This document shows positions 4,095 to 20,169 of a stretch of DNA of 64,000 nucleotides, in pieces (the first letter of the stretch is position 1; the number at the start of each line of letters is the position of its first letter). This DNA is from Rhizophagus irregularis (lineage: Eukaryota > Glomeromycota > Glomeromycetes > Glomerales > Glomeraceae): assembly GCF_026210795.1 (NCBI RefSeq), contig NC_089450.1, positions 3,472,001 through 3,536,000 of the forward strand, given 5' to 3'. The notes beneath the pieces were generated by a model. The model was given only the letters and a program-made list of their open reading frames with translations. It did not search any database and was not told the origin of the DNA. The position numbers and the translations under genes are program-made.

Positions 4095-4668
4095 TGTAAT
4101 AACTGAAAATATAATAAATAAATGACGCAGTAAATCCTGTGGCGCAGTAGGTCACATGATATGGTTACACAAGAAGAAATGGTTGGGAATACAAAAGTCA
4201 CATGACAAGTCACATGGCGCAGTAAGTGACGGATAAACATTTAGCCGATGGATAAATAATTAGCCAATAAAATTATATTTATAGTTTAGTTTAGTGTAAC
4301 AAGAAAGTCATATGATAATACATCTTTTATTTCTTATTATTCTTAGAATTTTGATAGAGAGAAAGAGTAGTAGATAGTAGAAATGATTTTCTTAAAATGT
4401 ATAAATACAAGTGGATTTCGATAGGAAATTCCGCAGTTCAATTTTTGGGAAAAATAAAATTTTTAATTCGCCTTTAATAAAAACTAACACATTCTTTTTG
4501 CCTTTTTCTTATGAGTAAAAAGTGCCACATTAATTATTTTAATTAATGGTTTATTAATGTTTTGTAACTAAATTTTATTTTAAACCAAGCATAGATATTA
4601 TACGAACTCAACACGTCGGTGGCAACATACGATATTTTATCTTAATATCCTATGGGCGGCGTGTCACA
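4095..4668 (+). repeat. 5' LTR of the Ty3/gypsy element
   Basis: The sequence starts TGTAATAACTG and ends GCGTGTCACA, with a near-identical copy at 13058-13630. Its first part carries three GCGCAGTA/ACGCAGTA motifs and several TCACATGA/GTCACATG (E-box-like) motifs. A TATA-like TATAAATA lies near 4400. Confidence 0.95.
4400..4407 (+). promoter_or_regulatory. TATA-like box in the 5' LTR
   Basis: TATAAATA is located about 270 nt before the LTR end and is repeated at the same place in the 3' LTR (13362-13369). It is a plausible core promoter for the genomic transcript. The start site is not mapped. Confidence 0.45.
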
Positions 4669-4672
4669 TTTT

Positions 4673-4690
4673 TGGTGCATGCTCACGAGA
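4673..4690 (+). other. Possible primer binding site
   Basis: TGGTGCATGCTCACGAGA begins 4 nt after the 5' LTR with the TGG that pairs with a tRNA CCA end. I could not match it to a particular tRNA, so this rests on position and the TGG only. Confidence 0.4.
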
Positions 4691-5754
4691 AAATAAAAGA
4701 TTGTTGTCTTCATACAAAATCTAAATAAGAAATAAAAGAAAAGTATATGAGAAAATGAAAGAAAAAATTTGTAAAATTGATAAGAAAGGAAAGATGATAT
4801 GAGAAATCATCAAAGAAATATAAGAAAGGAAGGATGATATGTAAAATCATCAAAGAAATGATAAGATAAGGAAGACTTATCTGAAATATGAGAAAAATGT
4901 TACTATATATGAAAAAGGATATAGTAAAAGTAATATTATGAAAAAGGAATATTACGGAATATATGAGAAATGAAATATACGATATATTGAAAAAGTATAT
5001 ATCAAAAAGATGAATGAAATATTCAAGATAAAAAGAAAAAGATTTAAAAATTGAATGAAAATAAAAATTTATAATGAGAATGAATTTTGTGAATAATAAA
5101 AAGTTAATAAATGATTGAAAAATTTGAAAAGTATTATAAGAAAAGAAAAGTTATTAGTGACAAACCCGTAAACTACTATACTTCTATGAAGTAAGGTAAA
5201 GCAACCAGGTATAGGTTACTAAATGAAAAAGAAAATTAAACGATATTGTAAATATAAGAAATATAGAAATGTTATTATTTAATATACGAAAAATAATTTT
5301 ATTACAATAAAAGAATGATATGAAAGATTGTAAAAGATAATAATGAATAATATGAAATAAAATGATATAATAAAAGAAATTGTGTAAGCATGTTGCGTAA
5401 ACGAAATAAAATGTTGTACAAATCACGTGAATAATGTAAATCACGTGATGAAGCGCAGTAAAAGAAATATATAGCTGCCCCTTGGGCAGAGGTGACTGAT
5501 TAATAAAAATATAAATGAATAAGAATATAATAGAAGAAATAGTTGTGTCACGGGGCGTTATGTCAACAGAAATTTTAGTACGTTGATCGCTTAAAAATCC
5601 GTGGCTATCCAATTATAATAAGAAAATATTAATGAATTATAAAATGAAATGCGAGAAATAAAATAATATGAAATAGATTTGAAATAAATATTTTGGAAGT
5701 TAATATAAGAAAAAGATTAAAAGTCATTAAAAGTTTAATGTTGTGTATGGAACT

Positions 5755-5982
5755 GGGAGGACCCAGTATAAATAAGCCTTTGTTGGTGATCATATTAGTC
5801 TGACACTGGGTGGTTTTCCCCAGTTATAAATAATCCCTAGCCTTGATCGCAGTTATTTGTAAGTATAAATAAGAGTACACGGGAGGACCCAGTATAAATA
5901 AGCCTTTGTTGTTGATCATATTAGTCTGACACTGGGCGGCCCCAGTTATAAATAATCCCTAGCCTTGATCACAGTTTATTTG
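5755..5982 (+). repeat. Tandem duplication in the retrotransposon leader
   Basis: A unit of about 105 bp starting GGGAGGACCCAGTATAAATA at 5755 is repeated at 5881, 126 nt downstream, with a few differences. Each unit holds ACCCAGT and ACTGGG(T/C) blocks able to pair as a hairpin, plus two AGT(T)ATAAATAA boxes. Its place in the long 5' leader is where packaging or dimerisation signals, or an internal promoter, could lie. That role is inference. Confidence 0.7.
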
Positions 5983-6206
5983 CGCAAGATATAGAAAGTT
6001 TATAAAATCGTGATTATAGATTATAAATTATATTATAGAATGTATAAAGAAATTATAGAATCAAAGCTGGAACTTTGAAAATATTAAAATTTAAATTGTA
6101 TTTTAAAAGAAGTAAAAGATAAAATAGTAATTTAAATGATAATAAAAATTTTATAAAATATAAATAAAAGTGAAATTATGAAATGTTTAAATAAATAAAA
6201 AAAAAA

Positions 6207-7997
6207 ATGTCTGATATATATGATGAGTTAGAAGAGATTAAGAATAGACATGAAATAGAGAAACATAATGAACTAAGAAAGGAATATCAAGTAGACCCTT
6301 CATGTCTAAAATGCTATAGTACTGATGAAATAGAGATAGGAGATTGGTTTAAAAGATTTTGGAAGATTTTTCAAAAAGTAATATTAGAAGCGATGAGTTA
6401 TAACAGAAATACATATATGAAATTAATGGAGTACATAGTACTAACAAAAAAGGATGAGGAAGAAAGTTATCCATCTAGTAGAAAGAAAAGAAATAAAGAA
6501 TTTGAGAAAATAAGAAAAGAAGGAGAAAAACTGTTAGATATAGTTGTAAGGTCAATTAGGTATAGGAATAAACCAGATTATAGAAAAATAGGAATTATAT
6601 CGGTAATAAAAGTAATATGTGAACATTACATACTGAGTGAAGATAATGAGTATATATTAGACGACCGAACAGAAGAAAATTTATTAGGAAATAAGGAATT
6701 GTTAACATATAGATATATTATAGAAGATAACGAATTAGATATAAGATTTGCAAAATTTGAAGAATGGTTAGAAAAAATAGAATCAGTAACTATTAAGAAT
6801 AAAGGATATGGTACTATGAAAAATTTTAAAGAAATATTACATTTAGAAGAAAATATTGCAGAAGAAGAAAATAGAGAGAAAATCAAGAAGTTTCAGAAAA
6901 GTATAACATATCAATGGTGGGATGGAAATAAATATCCAAAACCATGGATGAATGATGATTTAACAGATAAGATAATAGAGAAAATTGTAGAAACAAAAGG
7001 TTTTGTTGAAGAACAAAGTGACGTAGGAGAACTAGAAAGTTCAGATGATTTAGGAGAATCAAGTTCAAATGAAGGAGATGAACATATAGAAAGAATATAC
7101 AGAAATTATTGGTTAGAGAATGGTTATGAAATTGATATTGAAGAAATAAGACGAATAATAAATTTTAAAGTAGAATATGAAATAATAAAAACTAAAGAAT
7201 TTATGAGTTTTTACAAAACTATTGAAGAATTAGATGATAAAGGAATAGAAGAAGAATTAAGAATATGGCATTATATGTATACAATAGAATGTCCAACGTG
7301 TAATAAAATAATATTAAAGAAAGAAGCAATAGAAGCGGTAGAATACAACAAAGAATTTATAGAAAGAATATGTAAAAGTTGTTATGAAAAAGAATTAGAA
7401 AATGTAAAAGATGAGAATGAATTAGATGATGAAACAGAAATAGAGAAAAGACTAGAACAGTTAAAAAATCTAATCAAAGTTTTAGAAATTGAAGTTTCCG
7501 ATGGAGAATTATTAAGATTAATGAGTATGGGATATAGAAATGTTGATATATTAAGTGCAGACTTTATAAGAAAATTTCAAGAATATAAAAATGAATCAGA
7601 AAAAGAAATAAAGAGAATATTAGACGAATATTTAAAGAAATTTGAAATTGAAGAAAGTGAAGAAGAAGTTGAAGAAGAAAATGATGATACAGATAATTCG
7701 GAAAAGATTGGAGAAATATTAGATCCAGAAGAATATGAGATTCGGGAAGAAAATACTGAAGATTTTAATAAAAATGAATTTGAGAATGAAAATGAAAATG
7801 TTATAAATACAGGAGGTTTTGGTTTGAATCAAAATTCAGATTCGAATAATTCATTGAATATTAAAGATTCTGATAACGAAAGTGAAATATCTGATTATAA
7901 TTTACAAGATTTATTTCAAGAAAATATATTATTAAATATGGCAACAGAAGCACAAATAAGAAGAATAGTAGAAAATGCTACAGGGACTCGCACCTAA
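6207..7997 (+). CDS. Extra acidic ORF upstream of gag (unknown function)
   Basis: This 596-residue ORF lies between the leader and gag of the retrotransposon. It is very rich in Glu, Lys, Ile and Asn, mostly helical/charged in character, with an acidic stretch at about 485-535. It has one zinc-ribbon-like motif (CPTC near residue 363, then CKSC about 25 residues later). I do not recognise a family. Its last codons overlap the gag start by 23 nt in another frame. The peptide just before its stop (MATEAQIRRIVENA) reads like a natural N-terminal lead into gag if translation shifts by +1 near 7980. It may therefore be an independent accessory protein, or an N-terminal extension fused to Gag by frameshifting. 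Confidence 0.7.
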   Translation: MSDIYDELEEIKNRHEIEKHNELRKEYQVDPSCLKCYSTDEIEIGDWFKRFWKIFQKVILEAMSYNRNTYMKLMEYIVLTKKDEEESYPSSRKKRNKEFEKIRKEGEKLLDIVVRSIRYRNKPDYRKIGIISVIKVICEHYILSEDNEYILDDRTEENLLGNKELLTYRYIIEDNELDIRFAKFEEWLEKIESVTIKNKGYGTMKNFKEILHLEENIAEEENREKIKKFQKSITYQWWDGNKYPKPWMNDDLTDKIIEKIVETKGFVEEQSDVGELESSDDLGESSSNEGDEHIERIYRNYWLENGYEIDIEEIRRIINFKVEYEIIKTKEFMSFYKTIEELDDKGIEEELRIWHYMYTIECPTCNKIILKKEAIEAVEYNKEFIERICKSCYEKELENVKDENELDDETEIEKRLEQLKNLIKVLEIEVSDGELLRLMSMGYRNVDILSADFIRKFQEYKNESEKEIKRILDEYLKKFEIEESEEEVEEENDDTDNSEKIGEILDPEEYEIREENTEDFNKNEFENENENVINTGGFGLNQNSDSNNSLNIKDSDNESEISDYNLQDLFQENILLNMATEAQIRRIVENATGTRT

Positions 7998-9543
7998 TGC
8001 ATTAGATAATGCATTAGGAGCAGGACAAACTTTATTAGATAGAATTCAAACTGCAGGAATGGGAGGAATAGTAGGTATGCCAACTTTTAGTGGAAAAGAA
8101 GATGAAGATGTTAACGATTGGATTAGACAATTTGAAGTAGCATTTACAGTAAGTGGAAGAACAGAAGGAAATGTTGGAGGAGGTGTATGTAGTCAAAATA
8201 AAGCAAATGTAGCAATAACATGTTTAAGAGGAACCGCATTACAATGGTATAATGAAGAAAAAGAAAGAGTAGCAGCTAATTTAGTAAACTGGTGTGATCA
8301 TAACGATGATAGAAATTTGAAAAACAAATTAATTAATAGATTTACTAGAGAAGATGTTAAAAGAAGAAAAATGATGGAATTGACAAGAATTAAACAAGAA
8401 AAAAATGAAAGTGTTGAAGAGTATACTAGAAGATTTAGATCAATATTAAGAATTGCAACTAGAGGTCAAGCATTACATGATATGTATCAAGTAAATTATT
8501 ATATTCAAGGGTTAGAACCTACATTAGGGTACCAAGTTAGAAGAAGTAGTCCAACGAATTTAAATGATGCAATTAATACAGCAAGAAGAGAAGAAGAAGC
8601 TAAAAATGAATTGATAATGAAAACAACAGGTGTAAATATAGAACAAATAAGACAGGAAAAGAATATAGAAGAAATTTTAAAAGAAGAAACGAATAAAAAA
8701 GAAGAGAATGAAATATATAAGAAAATGCAAAAACCAGTTAATGAAAAAGATATTGATGAATTAAGTAAAGCGTTAGAACAGTTCAGAGCAGAAAAAATAG
8801 CTATGGAAGAAACGTTAAATGAAATAAAAAATCAACAAAGAAGAAATATAAATAGAAATACAAATACAAGAAATGCAAGGATCATGAGATGCTATGAATG
8901 CAATGAAGTAGGTCATATAAGACCAGAATGTCCACAATTAAGACAAAGAAATAATTATAGAACGCAAAATAATTTTAATAGGAATAATAATGAAAGAAGA
9001 AATAATAATAATAATAATAGAAATATAAATTTAATGGATCACGAAAGATATTATGATAATAATAGATATAATGATAATGAATATTATAATAATCACGAAA
9101 TATATAATTATGAAAAAGAAATATTTCCAACTTTAAGAAGTGGTAGAAAATATGGAAGAGATTTAGATAATGATTATAATGAAATGGAAATTGAAGATGT
9201 CCCAATACCACCAAAAAGAGAATATGATATGAAAATGGATATTGATGGTGAAAGAAAAGGAGGATTTTCTAATAAAGAAGATAGAGATAAAGCATATCAA
9301 TCAAGAAGAAGACATAACCGATGTGAAAGATGTGGAGTAACAGGTCATTTTATAAGAGAATGTCCAAACCCAGGAATGAAAAGAGGAAATAAAAATATTA
9401 GAGTACGAGTTAATGTACCACCAGAAAAATATGTAATGGATATGTATAATGAAAAAGCGAATATAACATATGGACAAATTTACAATGAAAATCCAAAATT
9501 TAGAAGAATAGCTAGAAATTATAATGAAGATGATAATGCATGA
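7975..9543 (+). CDS. gag: Gag capsid-nucleocapsid protein
   Basis: Structural protein of the retrotransposon particle, 522 residues. The capsid region shows the retrotransposon-gag signature (GTALQWYNEE near residue 85, and KQEKNESVEEYTRRFRS near 140). Two CCHC zinc knuckles for RNA binding follow: CYECNEVGHIRPEC near residue 305 and CERCGVTGHFIREC near 450. They are separated by an Asn/Arg-rich low-complexity stretch. The ORF ends at UGA (9541-9543), and the same frame stays open into the protease. The ATG at 7975 overlaps the previous ORF, so the true N-terminus is uncertain. Confidence 0.9.
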   Translation: MLQGLAPNALDNALGAGQTLLDRIQTAGMGGIVGMPTFSGKEDEDVNDWIRQFEVAFTVSGRTEGNVGGGVCSQNKANVAITCLRGTALQWYNEEKERVAANLVNWCDHNDDRNLKNKLINRFTREDVKRRKMMELTRIKQEKNESVEEYTRRFRSILRIATRGQALHDMYQVNYYIQGLEPTLGYQVRRSSPTNLNDAINTARREEEAKNELIMKTTGVNIEQIRQEKNIEEILKEETNKKEENEIYKKMQKPVNEKDIDELSKALEQFRAEKIAMEETLNEIKNQQRRNINRNTNTRNARIMRCYECNEVGHIRPECPQLRQRNNYRTQNNFNRNNNERRNNNNNNRNINLMDHERYYDNNRYNDNEYYNNHEIYNYEKEIFPTLRSGRKYGRDLDNDYNEMEIEDVPIPPKREYDMKMDIDGERKGGFSNKEDRDKAYQSRRRHNRCERCGVTGHFIRECPNPGMKRGNKNIRVRVNVPPEKYVMDMYNEKANITYGQIYNENPKFRRIARNYNEDDNA

Positions 9544-9546
9544 CTA
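9541..9546 (+). promoter_or_regulatory. Candidate UGA-CUA stop-codon readthrough site (gag-pro)
   Basis: The gag stop is UGA followed directly by CUA. After the UGA the same frame is open through 9544-9597 into the protease ORF without another stop. UGA followed by CUA is an established leaky termination context in eukaryotes. Readthrough would give a Gag-Pro fusion; that it happens is inferred. Confidence 0.55.
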
Positions 9547-9597
9547 CACTCGGACCAACAAATAAAAAGTGCAGATAATAAAAGTGAAACTAGAGCA

Positions 9598-10110
9598 ATG
9601 AGAAGTGAAGTTATAATAAAAGGAAAATTAGTATCAATAATAATAGATTCAGGAGCATCAGTTAGTTTAATATCAGATAGATTAAGAAAAGAATTAAATA
9701 TTCCAATAATAGAAAAGAGTGATATTAGATTTATAATGGCTAATGGAACAAGAGTTGCATCAAAAGGAAAAATAGAAATAACAATAGAAATAAATGAAAA
9801 TACAAAAATGAAAATAATTATGGACGTAATTGAATCAGTAGAAAAAGAATTAATATTAGGAAATGATGTGTTAAGAGAAAAGAAAGGAATAATAGATTAT
9901 AATGAAAAGATATTAATATTAAGAGAAGATGGAAAAGATATTGAAATACCAATAGAATATGAAAATAATGACGAAAATATTAATGACGATAATGATAGTG
10001 ATGATAGTGAAGATGATGATAGTGAAAATGAATATGAAGAAACAAGTGAACGAGAAATATATTTAATAAATAATGAAGAAAAAGGACATATTATAGAGGA
10101 AAACTACTAG
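9598..10110 (+). CDS. pro: Retropepsin-like aspartic protease
   Basis: Processes the Gag/Pol precursors. The active-site loop is IIIDSGASVSLIS near residue 18, followed by an ANGT flap-like segment near 46 and the ILGNDVL block near 82, the usual retropepsin order. The C-terminus is an acidic, Asp/Asn-rich tail. It lies in the same frame as gag, 54 nt after the gag UGA, and begins with an ATG that may not be used if readthrough supplies it. It stops at UAG 10108-10110. The next ORF is in the -1 frame and is open from about 10077, so 34 nt of overlap are available for a shift. Confidence 0.88.
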   Translation: MRSEVIIKGKLVSIIIDSGASVSLISDRLRKELNIPIIEKSDIRFIMANGTRVASKGKIEITIEINENTKMKIIMDVIESVEKELILGNDVLREKKGIIDYNEKILILREDGKDIEIPIEYENNDENINDDNDSDDSEDDDSENEYEETSEREIYLINNEEKGHIIEENY

Positions 10111-10142
10111 GTCTTGGCCATAATAATGGAGAGACATTAAAG

Positions 10143-11570
10143 ATGCACAAAGATTGGACAGACGAAATAAAATATAAAGATTTAGAGAAATTACAAGAGA
10201 AAGAATTAAAAGATTTAGTTAAAGAATACGAAGATATTTGTATATATGGGGATAAGAAAATAAGTAAAACAAATATAATAGAATGTAATATAAGATTGAA
10301 AGATGAAACGCCAATAAATCAAAAAGCATATAGAGAAAGTACAGAAAATAGAGAAATAATAAAAAGAGAAATAGATAAAATGTTAAAAGAAGGAATAATA
10401 CAAGAATCATGTAGTCCATGGTCGTCACCAGTAGTAATAGTAAATAAGAAGACAGGAGATAAAAGATTTTGTATAGATTTTAGAAAAATAAATCAAATGA
10501 CTATAACAGACGCATACCCTTTGCCAAGGATAGACGACTTATTAGAAAAATTTAGAGTAGCAAAATGGTTTACAACAATTGATTTAGCAAGTGGATATTG
10601 GCAAATAGAGATGAAAGGAGAAGATAAAGAAAAGACAGCATTTATTTGTAGTCAAGGACTATACGAATTTAATGTTATGCCATTTGGATTAAAAAACGCA
10701 CCGGCAATATTTCAAAGAACAATGAATAAAATATTTAAAGAATACTTAGATAAATTTATGAACGTATATATAGATGATATTATAATATATTCGAAAAATT
10801 GGAACGAACATTTACAACATATAAAGATAGTATTAGAAGAATTAAGAAAAGCGGATATGATGTTAAAATTAAAGAAATGTGAATGGGCGAAAAAGAATGT
10901 AGAATATTTAGGACATATAGTAGGAACAGATGGATTAAAACCAGATAATAAGAAAATAGAGAAGATTAAAAATTTAAAACCGCCAAAGAATATCAAACAA
11001 ATAAGAGAAATAAATGGATTATGTTCATATTATAGAAAATTTGTGAAAGGATATTCAAAAATAGTAAAACCAATAATGGAATTAACGAGAAAGAATGTTC
11101 CTTTTGTATGGACAGATAAACAACAAAAAGCATTAGAAGAATTAAAAGAAAAATTAATAAATTATCCGATATTACAACATCCAAATTTTGAAAAAGAATT
11201 TATATTAATAACAGATGCATCAGGAGAAGGATTAGGAGCTATATTAGAACAATTAGATGAAAATAATAGAGAAATAGTTATTAGTTATGCAAGTAGAAGT
11301 TTAGTAAATGCAGAAAAGAGATATCCGATAACAGAATTAGAATGTTTAGCAGTATTTTGGGGAATAAAATATTTTCATAAATATTTATTTGGAAGAAAAT
11401 TTAAAGTAATAACAGACCATGCAGCATTAAAAGGATTTATAAGTACATCAAAAGTTCCTAAAGGAAGAAGAGGAAGATGGATGATGGAATTACAACAATA
11501 TGATTTTGAGATAATACATAGACCAGGAAAAGAAAATAAGAATGCTGATGCGATGTCAAGGTTAATATGA
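10143..11570 (+). CDS. pol: Reverse transcriptase-RNase H
   Basis: Copies the genomic RNA into DNA and removes the template. The reverse transcriptase has FCIDFRKIN, TTIDLASGYWQI, the MPFGLKNAPA block and the catalytic YIDD at about residues 209-212. RNase H follows with ITDASGEGLGA (first Asp), TELECLAVFWG (Glu), ITDHAAL (Asp) and the closing NADAMSR motif. The ORF ends at UGA 11568-11570. Integrase is in the same frame, but several stops lie between 11571 and 11768. No canonical -1 slippery heptamer was found at the pro junction; re-initiation at this ATG, 33 nt after the protease stop, is an alternative. Confidence 0.95.
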   Translation: MHKDWTDEIKYKDLEKLQEKELKDLVKEYEDICIYGDKKISKTNIIECNIRLKDETPINQKAYRESTENREIIKREIDKMLKEGIIQESCSPWSSPVVIVNKKTGDKRFCIDFRKINQMTITDAYPLPRIDDLLEKFRVAKWFTTIDLASGYWQIEMKGEDKEKTAFICSQGLYEFNVMPFGLKNAPAIFQRTMNKIFKEYLDKFMNVYIDDIIIYSKNWNEHLQHIKIVLEELRKADMMLKLKKCEWAKKNVEYLGHIVGTDGLKPDNKKIEKIKNLKPPKNIKQIREINGLCSYYRKFVKGYSKIVKPIMELTRKNVPFVWTDKQQKALEELKEKLINYPILQHPNFEKEFILITDASGEGLGAILEQLDENNREIVISYASRSLVNAEKRYPITELECLAVFWGIKYFHKYLFGRKFKVITDHAALKGFISTSKVPKGRRGRWMMELQQYDFEIIHRPGKENKNADAMSRLI

Positions 11571-11632
11571 GAAAGATAAAAGTTTAGAAAATAATAAATA
11601 GTAATGAATAACGAGATAAATAAAATTAAAAA

Positions 11633-11776
11633 ATGGTTGAAAGAATAGGATTAGAAATATATATATTTATAATTCATACAAATATAAATTATCATTGCAT
11701 ATTATTTGAAGATAAAGAAATAAAATTTATTTTACCATTTGAAAACGAAATAGAAAATTTATTAACAAATGGATGA
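11633..11776 (+). CDS. Small linker ORF between RNase H and integrase
   Basis: A 47-codon ORF in the -1 frame relative to RT and integrase. It reads MVERIGLEIYIF... and ends ENEIENLLTNG, with the stop overlapping the first codons of the integrase ORF (11769). It occupies the place of the RNase H-integrase tether in other Ty3 polyproteins, so it may be the remnant or frame-shifted form of that tether. It could also be chance. Confidence 0.35.
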   Translation: MVERIGLEIYIFIIHTNINYHCILFEDKEIKFILPFENEIENLLTNG

Positions 11777-12992
11777 AAAAGAATATGATAAAATTGTAAA
11801 GAATATAGAAAAAGAAGAAAAATACGTACAAGAAAATGGAGTTTTATATAAAATTAAAGATGAAAATAAATTTAGAGTAATAAGAAGATTTGAATTAGAA
11901 GGAATAATGTATATGATGCATGATCATGAATTATCAGCACATTTTGGGATTCAAGCTACATATGAAAAAGTAAAGGAAAAATATTGGTGGAAGAATATGA
12001 AACGAGATGTAGAAAAATATGTAAAAAGTTGTGATAATTGTCAAAGAAGAAATAATCCACAAGGGTTACATGAATTACATCCAATAGAAGTAAAAGAACC
12101 TTTTCATATGATTGGAATAGATGTAATAGGACCATTACCAAGAACAGAAGAAGGAAATAAATATATAGTAGTAGCAATAGATTTCTTTACGAAATGGCCA
12201 GAAGCAAAAGCAATAAAAGAAGCAAATGCAAAAGAAATATCAAAATTCATTTATGAAGAAATAATTTGTCGACATGGATGTCCAAAGAAAATACTTACAG
12301 ATAATGGATCGGAATTTAATAATCAATTAACTAAAAATCTTACAGAAAAATTTAATGTTCAACATAAATTCTTGACTCCTTATCACCCTAAAACAAATGG
12401 ATTAGTAGAACGATTTAATAAAACATTAATAGAATCATTGGCGAAATTAGTAAAAGAAAAGTTAACGATATATAGAAATAGAGAATATGAAGATAAAAAT
12501 TGGGATCAAAGAATAGCACCAATATTGTTTGCATATAGAAGTAAAATACAGAAATCAAGTAAAATGACACCATTTTATTTGACTTATGGAAGAAGAGTAA
12601 TATTACCGAATGATGAAGAAGTTAAAGGAATTACAATGATTAAAAGAATAGAACATATAATAGAAGAATTACCAATAAAAAGACATGAAGCAAAGAAGAA
12701 TATTGAAAAAGCACAAGAACAACAAAAGAAATATCATGACAAAATTGGAAAACGAAAACAAAACTTTCAAATAGGAGATAAAGTATTATACTTTGATGCG
12801 GCGAAATACAAAACACATACAGGAAAACTAGAAGAAAAATGGAAGGGACCGTATTATATACGTGAAGTAATAATAAATGGATCGTACAAAATTAAAGAAT
12901 TAAATGGAAGAATTTTAAGAAGACCAGTAAATGGAGAATTATTAAAGGAATATTTTGATAGAGAAATATTTGAACCATATATAGTAATATAA
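11769..12992 (+). CDS. int: Ty3/gypsy integrase
   Basis: Inserts the cDNA into the genome. The N-terminal HHCC zinc domain is visible (HDHELSAHFG, then CDNC near residue 93). The catalytic core has GIDVIGPL (first Asp near 117), LTDNGSEF (second Asp near 177) and GLVERFN (Glu), with 35 residues between the last two, a standard DD35E. The C-terminus has a GPF/Y-like module (KWKGPYYIREV, then GRILRRPVNGE). No chromodomain is seen. As an isolated ORF it lacks an obvious route of expression from the upstream pol frame. Confidence 0.95.
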   Translation: MDEKEYDKIVKNIEKEEKYVQENGVLYKIKDENKFRVIRRFELEGIMYMMHDHELSAHFGIQATYEKVKEKYWWKNMKRDVEKYVKSCDNCQRRNNPQGLHELHPIEVKEPFHMIGIDVIGPLPRTEEGNKYIVVAIDFFTKWPEAKAIKEANAKEISKFIYEEIICRHGCPKKILTDNGSEFNNQLTKNLTEKFNVQHKFLTPYHPKTNGLVERFNKTLIESLAKLVKEKLTIYRNREYEDKNWDQRIAPILFAYRSKIQKSSKMTPFYLTYGRRVILPNDEEVKGITMIKRIEHIIEELPIKRHEAKKNIEKAQEQQKKYHDKIGKRKQNFQIGDKVLYFDAAKYKTHTGKLEEKWKGPYYIREVIINGSYKIKELNGRILRRPVNGELLKEYFDREIFEPYIVI

Positions 12993-13044
12993 TAAGTTTG
13001 AGGACCCGAATTCGATTCTTAATTTATGGGACATAAATTTTTTT

Positions 13045-13057
13045 AGAGGAGGATAAA
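13045..13057 (+). other. Polypurine tract
   Basis: AGAGGAGGATAAA directly precedes the 3' LTR and follows a T-run, as expected for the plus-strand primer of an LTR element (one T within the tract). Confidence 0.75.
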
Positions 13058-13630
13058 TGTAATAACTGAAAATATAATAAATAAATGACGCAGTAAATCC
13101 TGTGGCGCAGTAGGTCACATGATATGGTTACACAAGAAGAAATGGTTGGGAATACAAAAGTCACGTGACAAGTCACATGGCGCAGTAAGTGACGGATAAA
13201 CATTTACAGATGGATAAATAATTAGCCAATAAAATTATATTTATAGTTTAGTTTAGTGTAACAAGAAAGTCATATGATAATACATCTTTTATTTCTTATT
13301 ATTCTTAGAATTTTGATAGAGAGAAAGAGTAGTAGATAGTAGAAATGATTTTCTTAAAATGTATAAATACAAGTGGATTTCGATAGGAAATTCCGCAGTT
13401 CAATTTTTGGGAAAAATAAAATTTTTAATTCGCCTTTAATAAAAACTAACACATTCTTTTTGCCTTTTTCTTATGAGTAAAAAGTGCCACATTAATTATT
13501 TTAATTAATGGTTTATTAATGTTTTGTAACTAAATTTTATTTTAAACCAAGCATAGATATTATACGAACTCAACACGTCGGTGGCAACATACGATATTTT
13601 ATCTTAATATCCTATGGGCGGCGTGTCACA
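13058..13630 (+). repeat. 3' LTR of the Ty3/gypsy element
   Basis: Near-identical copy of 4095-4668, one base shorter. It ends GTGTCACA and is followed by the GGGT target duplication. Confidence 0.95.
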
Positions 13631-14758: not shown

Positions 14759-17048
14759 TTACGTTTTACGTTTTCCAGAAGCTCTAGGTTTAGGTCCCCA
14801 ATTCTTTTCAGGATTTTGTTGATATCTTACCAACTTAATTTTTCTTGAAGGTGGTTCGGCATCTTTATGTATTTTAAAATCTGCGATAAAACTATAAATA
14901 TAATATTTCTAATTAATTATCATAAGGAATGTGTAAATTTTATTTCAGATGCAGACCTTGGTTCTACTGCTAATAACTTTCTTGCGGGTGAATTTTCTGC
15001 AATATTTTTCATTGTAACAGGATGAAGTTTTTCCTACGAGAGTTCTTTAATATTTAACTTTGAAGGCAATATTAAATTAGATTAGTGAATATACTTACCC
15101 ACGATCTCATTACATCCCAAATAACATCCATTGGAGCATCGGTTTTTACCGAACCTGCCATTGCATGCGATGCTGACACTTTATAACCTTTGTTCAACAG
15201 TGCAGAACTAAAACAGTTATTAATAAAAAAAATTATCGGTTTACTAACAAAGAATATTATTTTGTAAATTCTTATTTACCAAAATTGCTTTAATGGTGGA
15301 TTTGTACAATTCAATTTACTTGAAAGTACTGAAATACTATGAAAGAGAGGAACATCAATTTCCTATTTTAAAATAATAAGAATTAGAACCAAATTTTGAC
15401 ACTTCCATATTTATAGTTTCGTTCTTACCTCTGAAATTACTGTTAACATTCCTAACATACGTGCATGGGTTCCATACACCTCCGTACTCGAATTTTTTAC
15501 ATGTGTAAGCATTTTTCGAACAAATTCTTTATCATGTATAGAGGAATTCCATATAGGACCTCCAACCTAAAAAAAGAAACAATTCTTTTTTTTAAGTAGA
15601 TATTAAATAAGAATAAAATACCCTATATAATTACATGAAATTTATTTCCACAATGTTCACAATTGCTATTAACAATAGGTCCAACCATAGGTACATAAGA
15701 ATTGTTTTCCTTTAATTTAGCTAATGGTTGCAAATAATATGATTTACAACCTGTACAAACATAAATATGTGATGTATTACTGATATCAATAAAATGCACT
15801 AAATTAGTACGTTTTGATTGTTTAAAGAAAATTTTCATTCTCTCCTTTTTGCTTACCAGCAATTTTTTTTTACTTCAGCAGCTGAAATTACAACACGAAC
15901 AAATACTCTAATATAGAAATCTATGCTACAAGATAGCAAAGGAATTATTTGTCTTTGATATCTTGCAGCACATGTTGATAATGTATAGAGAAGAATTCTT
16001 AAAGCCTTTAATGATAAATTTATCGTTAGTCAATTTGCATGATCTGTTTTTGAAAATCTTTGCATATATATAAAATAACCAACCATTTCATGACAAAATT
16101 CTCCCTTAGTAGGTATCGATCCATAATTTGCATAGCTGATGTTTACATATTTATTTTAAAAAAGTTTGTTATAACGGATAAAATAAATTTTATAAATAAA
16201 AAATTCTACCATTTCTCGGGATAAGTTGATCCAGTGAGAACAGCCAAATCGGTACAAGTAATACAAAGTAGGCCTAATCTATCATCCAGTAAGAAATGTT
16301 TCGAAAAGAATATAAATAATTACATATTTTGTCATACCTCCATTTTGAACAGATTGTACTGCCGCATCTAAAAAAGGCGAAGCTGTTCCATACGGGTCAA
16401 TGTCGACAACATCAAATCGTTTATGGTATTCTATATGCTGATACATCAATGAACTAAAATTATTTCAGTAACCTAATCGTTTCAGGTTACAAATTTATAT
16501 AGATTTTTTTCGTATAAAATTTACCATGCATCACCTTGATTTGCTCTGACTAATTCTTTGCTCAATCCATTATGTTCTACATTTTGGTTAATTGATTTGA
16601 CAGCATCAGCATCTAAATCATTAGCCACTATAAAATCAATGTTAGGTAGTTCTTTAGCGTAACGAATCGATCGTAGACCGCTTGCTGCTAATGCCTCTAA
16701 TATGGTAAAAGTATTATTCTTTGATTGTACTATTGCTGTGCTAGTCTCTTTTGTTTTACGTGCTTTTTTCTCTTTCTCTTCCAAGAAAATTTCGCTCCAA
16801 GTTCTTATAGCTGCAACTGACATATCTCTATTAAACTGTTGTACTTTATTATAAAATACTGCATTATCTTTTGGAAATAAAATACTAGCTTTCCCTTCAG
16901 TGATTACACTGAAATCTTCAATATTGATATTAGAAGTTGTCATGATTCCTCTGATAAAAAATAAATTGGTTGATATTTTAAGGTTATCTGAAAATTTTAT
17001 TCGTTTGCTAATTCTATAAAAATTGTGAAAACTCTTCGTAAATAACAT
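14759..17048 (-). CDS. TRM1: tRNA (guanine26-N2)-dimethyltransferase Trm1
   Basis: SAM-dependent enzyme that makes m2,2-guanosine at tRNA position 26. Eleven exons close in phase (529 residues): 16525-17048, 16338-16453, 16210-16273, 16084-16135, 15857-16005, 15635-15779, 15429-15566, 15280-15362, 15099-15207, 14957-15033, 14759-14891. Family blocks in order: [55 protein letters not shown] (SAM/catalytic site), [21 protein letters not shown], a zinc pair CTGC...CEHCG, GGPIW, and the C-terminal EPPSR and NPEKNWGPK. The first 35 residues are basic and hydroxylated, like a mitochondrial presequence. A second Met at residue 36 (16943) could start a nuclear/cytosolic form, as known for yeast Trm1. 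Confidence 0.96.
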
Positions 17049-17203
17049 GATTAGCTGCTGAAATACTTATTCTCTCAAATATATGTGCACATCACGTGAA
17101 TTATATTGCGTAAAAATCTAGTGTAACTCGAGTGCGTCATCAAACGTATGAGAATAAAATTGATCGAGTGCCAACAAAATATCCTCAATATCGAATTCCT
17201 ATA
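17049..17203. promoter_or_regulatory. Divergent TRM1/PRE5 promoter
   Basis: Only 155 bp separate the two start codons, so they probably share a bidirectional promoter. It contains a TCACGTGA palindrome (E-box core CACGTG at 17093-17098). Which factor binds is unknown. Confidence 0.6.
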
Positions 17204-18620: not shown

Positions 18621-20169
18621 ATGAATTCTTCCACTTTCCTTCCAGGCAACAATGATAAAACTGTCAGAACCCAATCAACAACTTTTCATATACAACCACA
18701 TTCTAAACAAAAAGTTTCTTACTTTCACCATAAAGATGTTGGAAACTTTCACTTTGGTGTAGGTTTTATCTAAAAAAAATAGTTGCAATATTACCGTTAA
18801 TTTTCAAAATATTTATGTCTCTTATAAAACAGTTACAACATCCAATGAAACCTCACCGTTTGACTTTAACGAACAATTTGGTTCTAAGTTATGGCCTGCA
18901 TAAAAAAATGACGGTTTATTGTCCGCCTAAAGCGACCGATGATGAATTAATGGAATTTCATGAAACAGATTATATCAAGTTCCTAAAAGAAGTAACACCA
19001 GAAAATTCTGAAGAATTTGCTGAAGATTTTCCTAAGTTTAACATAAGTGAGGATTGTCCAATATTTGAGGGATTGTATGATTTTTGTCAGATATATGCAG
19101 GTGCTTCAATAGGCGCGGCACATCAATTAGCATCAGATGGAGCTGATATATGTATTAATTGGAGCGGAGGATTGCATCATGCGAAAAGATTTGAAGCTTC
19201 AGGATTTTGTTTTGTAAATGATATAGTTTTGGCGATTCAGCATTTATTAAGGTTCGTAAAAAAAAAGTTTTTTTGCATGAATTTTATATATTTTACTTAA
19301 AGTAGTTCGTCATTAAAAGGTTTTATCCGCGTGTTTTATATATTGACATTGATATACATCATGGTGATGGCGTACAAGAAGCATTTTACGCTACAGATCG
19401 AGTTATGACAGTATCATTTCATAAATATGATAGTGGCAGCTTTTTCCCCGGAACTGGAAATATAAGCGAAATTGGTTATGGATTGGGAAAATTCTTTTGT
19501 TTAAATGTACCTCTCAAAGATGGAATTGATGACGATAGCTACGTTTCATTATTCAAGGATGTTATATTAGATGTAAGAGATCATTATCAGCCGAGCGTTA
19601 TCGTATTACAATGTGGAGCAGATTCTCTTGGAAAAGATAGATTAGGAGGTTTTAATATAAGTATTAAAGCTCACGGAGAATGTGTAAAATTTATAAAAAG
19701 TTGGCAGATTCCTTTGTTAGTTCTTGGAGGTGGCGGTTATAGAATTTCTAATGTAGCAAGATGTTGGACTTATGAAACTGGAATATTACTTGATACCGAA
19801 TTACAGCCTGAATTACCACAAAAGAATCATTATTATAATTTTTTTGGTCCAGATTTTTCATTGCATCCACCACTTGTAAGAAAGATGGATAATTTGAATA
19901 CAAGAAGTGAACTACAAAAAATTTCACAGCAAGTTCATGAATTGTTGAGATTTTTGGATGGAGTTCCTAGTGTTCAAATGCAAGAACTTCCAGGGGATTT
20001 ACAAGGTATATTGGATGAATCTGATGAGGAATTAAGAGATGCAAGGGAAGATCAAACTGTTGATGTTAGAGGTAGAAAACGTTTAATGTGGCATGATAAT
20101 GAATATTTTGATGGAGATAGTGATAACGATAAAGATGACGATCAAAATATGGATGTTGATTTAAGCTAA
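18621..20169 (+). CDS. HOS2: Class I histone deacetylase, Hos2/HDAC3-like
   Basis: Zinc-dependent lysine deacetylase, normally part of a nuclear co-repressor complex. Exons 18621-18758, 18833-19251 and 19320-20169 join in phase to 468 residues. The N-terminal [13 protein letters not shown] continues after the intron as [12 protein letters not shown], the class I start. Active-site blocks are [20 protein letters not shown] (tandem His), [12 protein letters not shown] (zinc-binding Asp/His), [15 protein letters not shown] and the catalytic Tyr in LGGGGYR, then [10 protein letters not shown]. The tail from about residue 410 is acidic and Asp-rich, with a short KR patch. [12 protein letters not shown] and the preceding region favour Hos2/HDAC3 over Rpd3, but I cannot run an alignment. 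It converges with SMG1 (255 bp between stops). Confidence 0.92.

Follow-up and report, generated by a model that had tools for sequence, protein, structure and literature searches.

The junction between gag and protease in a lineage of Ty3-type LTR retrotransposons of Rhizophagus irregularis is very probably a programmed UGA readthrough site, to judge from an in-frame stop codon and the letters behind it that are kept across families of the same genome. The element described here lies at positions 4095-13630 of the window, by which we mean the whole 64,000-nt stretch of contig NC_089450.1 that was analysed. It possesses two LTRs, and its Pfam matches follow the order of Ty3-type elements: gag, protease, reverse transcriptase (RT), RNase H and integrase (Table 1). 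The gag frame ends in TGA at 9541-9543, followed by CTA at 9544-9546, exactly as the preliminary description of this DNA had reported, and beyond the stop it continues in phase into the protease ORF. We could confirm that the frame is open from the stop through the 54-nt spacer and on to 10110.

Since conservation of UGA CUA among copies of the same genome had been proposed as the informative comparison, the assembly (146.7 Mb, 32 contigs) was searched for further copies. A DNA search with 480 bases around the junction gave at least 42 matches at no fewer than 30 loci, and a protein search with the protease gave at least 150 places, many of them only 34-46% identical in amino acids. Pieces were cut around these places, and the codon aligned to 9541-9543 was read. 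We examined 148 loci, corresponding to 148 of the at least 150 protease places (C21:661924 and C19:3296994 were left out). The junction is not spanned in four of them (L024, L026, L027 and L046), and 144 copies were counted; L025 and L028 were left out, since each is the second part of an interrupted element for which L024 or L023 already stands. Assigned by best reference, the spanning copies belong to six families: W, that of the window element, with 23 copies, A with 25, B with 12, D with 54, F with one and G with 29. Copies are near-identical inside each family, and the independent sample is therefore about six families. UGA CUA proved to be conserved: the junction codon is TGA in 140 of the 144 copies, TAA in two, both of family W, and TTA in two, and the following codon is CTA in 143. 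The junction codon aside, 130 copies are free of stops in the 99 nt upstream of it and in the 150 nt downstream. The codon before the stop, GCA in the window, differs between families.

Table 1. Parts of the Ty3-type element in the window (ORF coordinates run from stop to stop)
Feature	Position	Strand	Observation
5' LTR	4095..4668	+	99.48% identical to 13058-13630 over 574 columns, 2 mismatches and 1 gap
ORF1, about 600 aa	6195..7997	+	Without Pfam match
gag ORF (capsid, CCHC knuckles)	7972..9543	+	Retrotrans_gag and CCHC matches; start frame-broken in this copy
UGA stop, proposed readthrough codon	9541..9543	+	TGA 140, TAA 2, TTA 2 of 144 spanning copies
TGACTACACTCGG, putative linear readthrough signal	9541..9553	+	Same in representatives of W, A, B, D, F
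In-frame spacer, 54 nt / 18 codons	9544..9597	+	pN/pS 0.43 (W copies), 3 changes to stop
Protease ORF, in phase with gag	9544..10110	+	Aspartyl protease matches; pN/pS 0.32 for 9598-10107
Protease ORF end / RT ORF overlap, -1 frame	10077..10110	+	Spanning W copies: protease ORF ends in stop 20/21, RT frame -1 without indel 21/21
RT-RNase H ORF, -1 relative to protease	10077..11570	+	Pfam matches
47-aa ORF between RNase H and integrase	11633..11776	+	ORF reading
Integrase ORF	11766..12992	+	Pfam matches; stop at RNase H end kept in 9/9 aligned copies, 10 fetched
3' LTR	13058..13630	+	Pair of 4095-4668

Conservation extends beyond the stop and the codon that follows it. The 13-mer TGACTACACTCGG is identical in the representatives of families W, A, B, D and F; the family G representative has TGACTACAAGAAC instead and does not contain the CACUCGG part. 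Among the five families, the flanks show an ungapped identity of 27-42% in the 60 nt before the 13-mer and 32-51% in the 59 nt after it. The 13-mer is found 103 times in the 146.7 Mb of the genome, compared with three times for its reversed control, and 98 of the 103 matches, by addition, sit in surveyed copies. The Leu-His-Ser peptide encoded behind the stop does not explain the conserved letters, because its codons are rare in the element's own ORFs: CTA accounts for 2 of 95 Leu codons, CAC for 4 of 29 His codons and TCG for 4 of 51 Ser codons, giving CTA CAC TCG a joint frequency of 2.3 × 10−4. Between families, the nucleotides of the 3' context are more conserved than coding for this peptide would require. 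In family W itself, the rate of change in the 13-mer (11 of 273 sites, 4.0%) is close to that in gag (4.6%) and exceeds that in the rest of the spacer (2.7%) and in the protease (3.0%), which counts against a signal. Changes in the W copies affect the stop at 2 of 63 sites and CTACA at 1 of 105 sites. In W, A and D, the CpG within TCGG is hit by several of the changes, and we infer that these reflect decay of methylated copies.

The protease ORF is under purifying selection and is maintained as a protein in spite of the stop codon ahead of it, since its pN/pS, calculated against the window copy with up to 22 W copies, is 0.32 and none of the changes in it creates a stop. The corresponding pN/pS values are 0.30 for gag (8032-9540), where 16 changes to stop were found, 0.63 for the last 80 gag codons and 0.43 for the spacer, with three changes to stop. 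RNA folding was analysed in four downstream segments from one representative of each of the six families, with 100 dinucleotide shuffles each. No strong downstream structure was found in these single-strand, pseudoknot-free folds, with 19 of 24 z-scores positive and a lowest value of -1.47, and no structure common to the six families was seen downstream of the stop among the 24 folded segments. Upstream of the stop, the 60-nt segment gave a z-score of -2.61 for A and -1.99 for B, with no such value in the other four families. The readthrough signal looks linear, because the downstream RNA is not unusually structured in these folds.

We propose that most ribosomes would stop at the UGA and release Gag, and that a minority would decode the UGA by a near-cognate tRNA. 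Such decoding would be favoured by the CUA after the UGA together with the conserved linear stretch, which includes CACUCGG in five of the six families. Ribosomes that read through would go on into the protease and yield Gag-Pro in limited amount, and readthrough, at an efficiency that is presumed here, would set the ratio of Gag to Gag-Pro. RT-RNase H and integrase would be translated by another step.

Termination at the UGA followed by reinitiation at a downstream in-frame AUG would instead produce free protease. The first in-frame ATG past the stop in the window is at 9598, 54 nt on, and the representatives of families B, D and F also have an AUG near the protease start, but those of A and G have no Met there; moreover, the spacer is open in most copies, and the conserved letters are those directly after the stop. 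This route appears improbable. We consider removal of the stop from the RNA, by splicing or editing, to be somewhat less probable again, and inspection by eye found no GT-AG pair common to the families around the stop. It could also be argued that the 13-mer is kept for a reason other than decoding, such as RNA packaging, a small-RNA target or a DNA-binding site, and merely overlaps the stop, as the conserved stretch exceeds the UGA CUA core. This is very unlikely: the 13-mer begins exactly at the gag stop in five families and contains a known leaky context, and behind codons with a first letter other than T, the 10-mer that follows the stop shows no enrichment (14 matches, compared with 23 for its control).

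According to the preliminary description, sense codons at 9541-9543 in most full-length copies would make the window copy a simple nonsense mutant. A sense codon is found in only two of the 144 spanning copies. One of these, L050 of family G, has TTA at the junction within a 1372-aa frame, and its neighbour in the protease tree is a TGA copy; the long open frame and this neighbour make the TTA look like a recent loss of the stop. The other, L069 of family A, has further stops in frame and for this reason looks decayed. The view that an ordinary, undivided gag-pro ORF has decayed by nonsense mutation could draw on L050, and on three of 20 other protease-bearing places (picked from two Pfam searches and read upstream) where the frame ahead of the protease is free of stops for more than 1 kb, a pattern that points to a putative fused gag-pro frame in each. 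The stop is nevertheless present at the same codon in 142 of 144 spanning copies and in six families, which refutes nonsense decay for the family as a whole and leaves it with a negligible probability. Judged by these alignments, the in-frame stop is not a nonsense mutation. Decoding of the UGA as selenocysteine, which the identity of the codon would allow, is just as hard to credit, given TAA in two copies, a best tRNA-Sec score of 40.9 bits against a cut-off of 47 in an assembly whose gaps could hide one, and similarly weak tRNA-Sec matches in all 14 control genomes.

The readthrough families appear to be related to one another more closely than to other proteases of the genome. In a tree of 21 protease rows, the ten rows from readthrough families (including L046, in which the junction is not spanned, and L050 with its TTA) form one group with support of 98/96, apart from the eleven others. 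A single origin of the readthrough families is likely but not proven, because some branches of the tree are long and may attract each other. Among the 20 other protease-bearing places, L189 is another F-like copy, with TGA followed by CTACACTTGG, and in 16 the protease does not adjoin a gag-TGA-CTACA junction; L188, one of these 16, has TGA CTACAG 357 nt before the protease, with only 68 open codons upstream.

Readthrough alone would give Gag-Pro rather than Gag-Pol, because RT-RNase H and integrase sit in further ORFs. In family W, the RT frame lies at -1 to the protease and is interrupted by a stop in one of the 21 spanning copies. The copies of A, D, F and G that were read also have the RT frame at -1 behind the protease stop, with an overlap of 1-13 nt; in family B an interval rather than an overlap separates the protease from the RT frame. 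The 34-nt overlap in family W is compatible with a -1 slip from protease into RT, which may operate there. A canonical -1 slip was rejected for the D and G copies that were read: in these, the -1 frame closes 1-4 nt ahead of the protease stop, and ribosomes slipping at an earlier point would meet that closing codon. In families A and F the protease stop shares letters with an ATG (ATGA and TAATG, by eye), and stop-start reinitiation is our leading guess for RT translation in these two families. The RT side starts with (A/G)GTCTTGG in W, A, D, F and G. This motif was observed directly behind the protease stop at 10077-10122 of the window and in L029, L030, L033, L040-L043, L045, L046, L048-L050 and L161.

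A more ambitious reading, which we offer tentatively and hold to be rather unlikely, is that the lineage fixed an extended, structure-free signal (UGA CUACACUCGG) that would act through contacts between the mRNA entry stretch and the ribosome, dosing only the protease, as Gag-Pro. RT-RNase H and integrase would then be made separately via further non-standard steps, namely either stop-start coupling or a shift where the protease ends, plus a start of its own for integrase, and pol would be split into parts that are each controlled on their own. With regard to pairing of the 3' signal with 18S rRNA, a conserved 18S stretch found no counterpart in the R. irregularis assembly.

The region between RNase H and integrase shows some further features. 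In the window element the stop of the 47-aa ORF overlaps the ATG of the integrase ORF. Of 10 W copies fetched, nine were aligned, and all nine keep the stop-containing gap at 11571-11771. A P-loop kinase-like domain (Walker A DGVDGxGK), absent from the window element, separates RNase H from integrase in families A, B, D and G (L161:1584-2435, L162:1715-2578, L163:1440-2081 and L164:1554-2243). The domain gave weak dTMP-kinase and AAA matches in Pfam for B, D and G and weak dTMP-kinase matches in NCBIfam for A, B, D and G, all below curated cut-offs, and its best matches among solved structures cover mainly the P-loop (FtsY). A search of open-access papers found none on an LTR retrotransposon with a thymidylate kinase beside integrase and RT.

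The preliminary description had taken the near-identical LTRs as a sign that the window copy represents the working state. Their near-identity is borne out, and it dates the copy; it does not show that the copy works, because its frame is broken at the overlap of ORF1 and gag. There, the length of the window copy is off by one base compared with 18 of 20 other aligned copies, which breaks the frame near the gag start, and the remaining two have further indels at the overlap; none of the 20 shares the break. In three other W copies (L166-L168), ORF1 and gag form one frame as far as the pieces reach. L171 of family G has a 915-aa open piece with the gag domain at its end, which implies a long N-terminal Gag extension in that family too.

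A leaky gag stop is in itself of an ordinary kind; what is unusual here is the lineage, the length of the conserved 3' signal and the fact that the stop leads only to a protease. The published Ty3 cases that we found are fission-yeast elements. Tj1, Tosmo1-3 and Tcry1 carry an in-frame TGA, with GAA TGA CT strictly conserved in all five (PMC10085805); the TGA after gag is followed by CTA or CTG in the fission-yeast Ty3 elements (PMC10085805, PMC4600332), and removal of the gag stop of Tj1 abolished transposition (PMC4600332). Other Tf1/sushi elements rely predominantly on -1 frameshifting (PMC10085805). The view that readthrough would be uncommon in a fungal Ty3 element thus stands in so far as it is a minority strategy, but TGA CT(A/G) had already been published for fission yeasts. 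The R. irregularis elements resemble Tj1, Tosmo1-3 and Tcry1 in having an in-frame TGA after gag, here followed by CTA. They differ in three respects: the codon before the stop varies instead of being GAA, five of six families conserve as much as 10 nt on the 3' side, and the ORF behind the stop contains only the protease and ends at 10110, whereas protease, RT and integrase share one pol ORF in the fission-yeast elements. We found no earlier report of the present junction among the open-access papers searched, and the main text of two papers on R. irregularis transposable elements does not contain the term 'stop codon' (PMC8647823, PMC11075540).

The leakiness attributed to UGA CUA has a fungal precedent in Ustilago maydis, where UGA CU is sufficient for readthrough that produces peroxisomal isoforms (PMC4207609). 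The strongest reported motif is UGA CUA G, with effects of positions up to +12, and human MDH1 and LDHB are among the readthrough cases (PMC12233894). In the junction studied here, as in the Ustilago and human examples, a short linear context is built around UGA and a following CU(A). Unlike the strongest motif, the junction has C after CUA, in the window and in the representatives of all six families.

The Tca2 element of Candida albicans is of the Ty1/copia type. Like the present elements it is a fungal LTR element with an in-frame UGA, between gag and pol, but it has a purine-rich spacer and a putative pseudoknot, and in S. cerevisiae no readthrough was seen at its junction, which counsels caution (PMC2194720). 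Murine leukaemia virus similarly has an in-frame stop after gag, which is bypassed at low frequency; as described in the same source, the viral signal consists of UAG, a purine-rich spacer and a pseudoknot (PMC2194720). By contrast, the stop here is UGA, and no strong structure was found in the pseudoknot-free folds.

Six diverged families within a single genome have retained the junction, five of them with a constant 3' signal of 10 letters, and they offer a natural comparison that bears on the importance of individual letters beyond UGA CUA, a subject usually approached by reporter mutation. The placement of protease, RT-RNase H and integrase in separate ORFs bears on how these enzymes are made and packaged. 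Beside the element, the window contains on the minus strand (16521-17066) a piece that we take, by eye, to be tRNA methyltransferase-like, and on the plus strand (18734-20169) what is presumably, again by eye, a histone deacetylase-like gene in two pieces.
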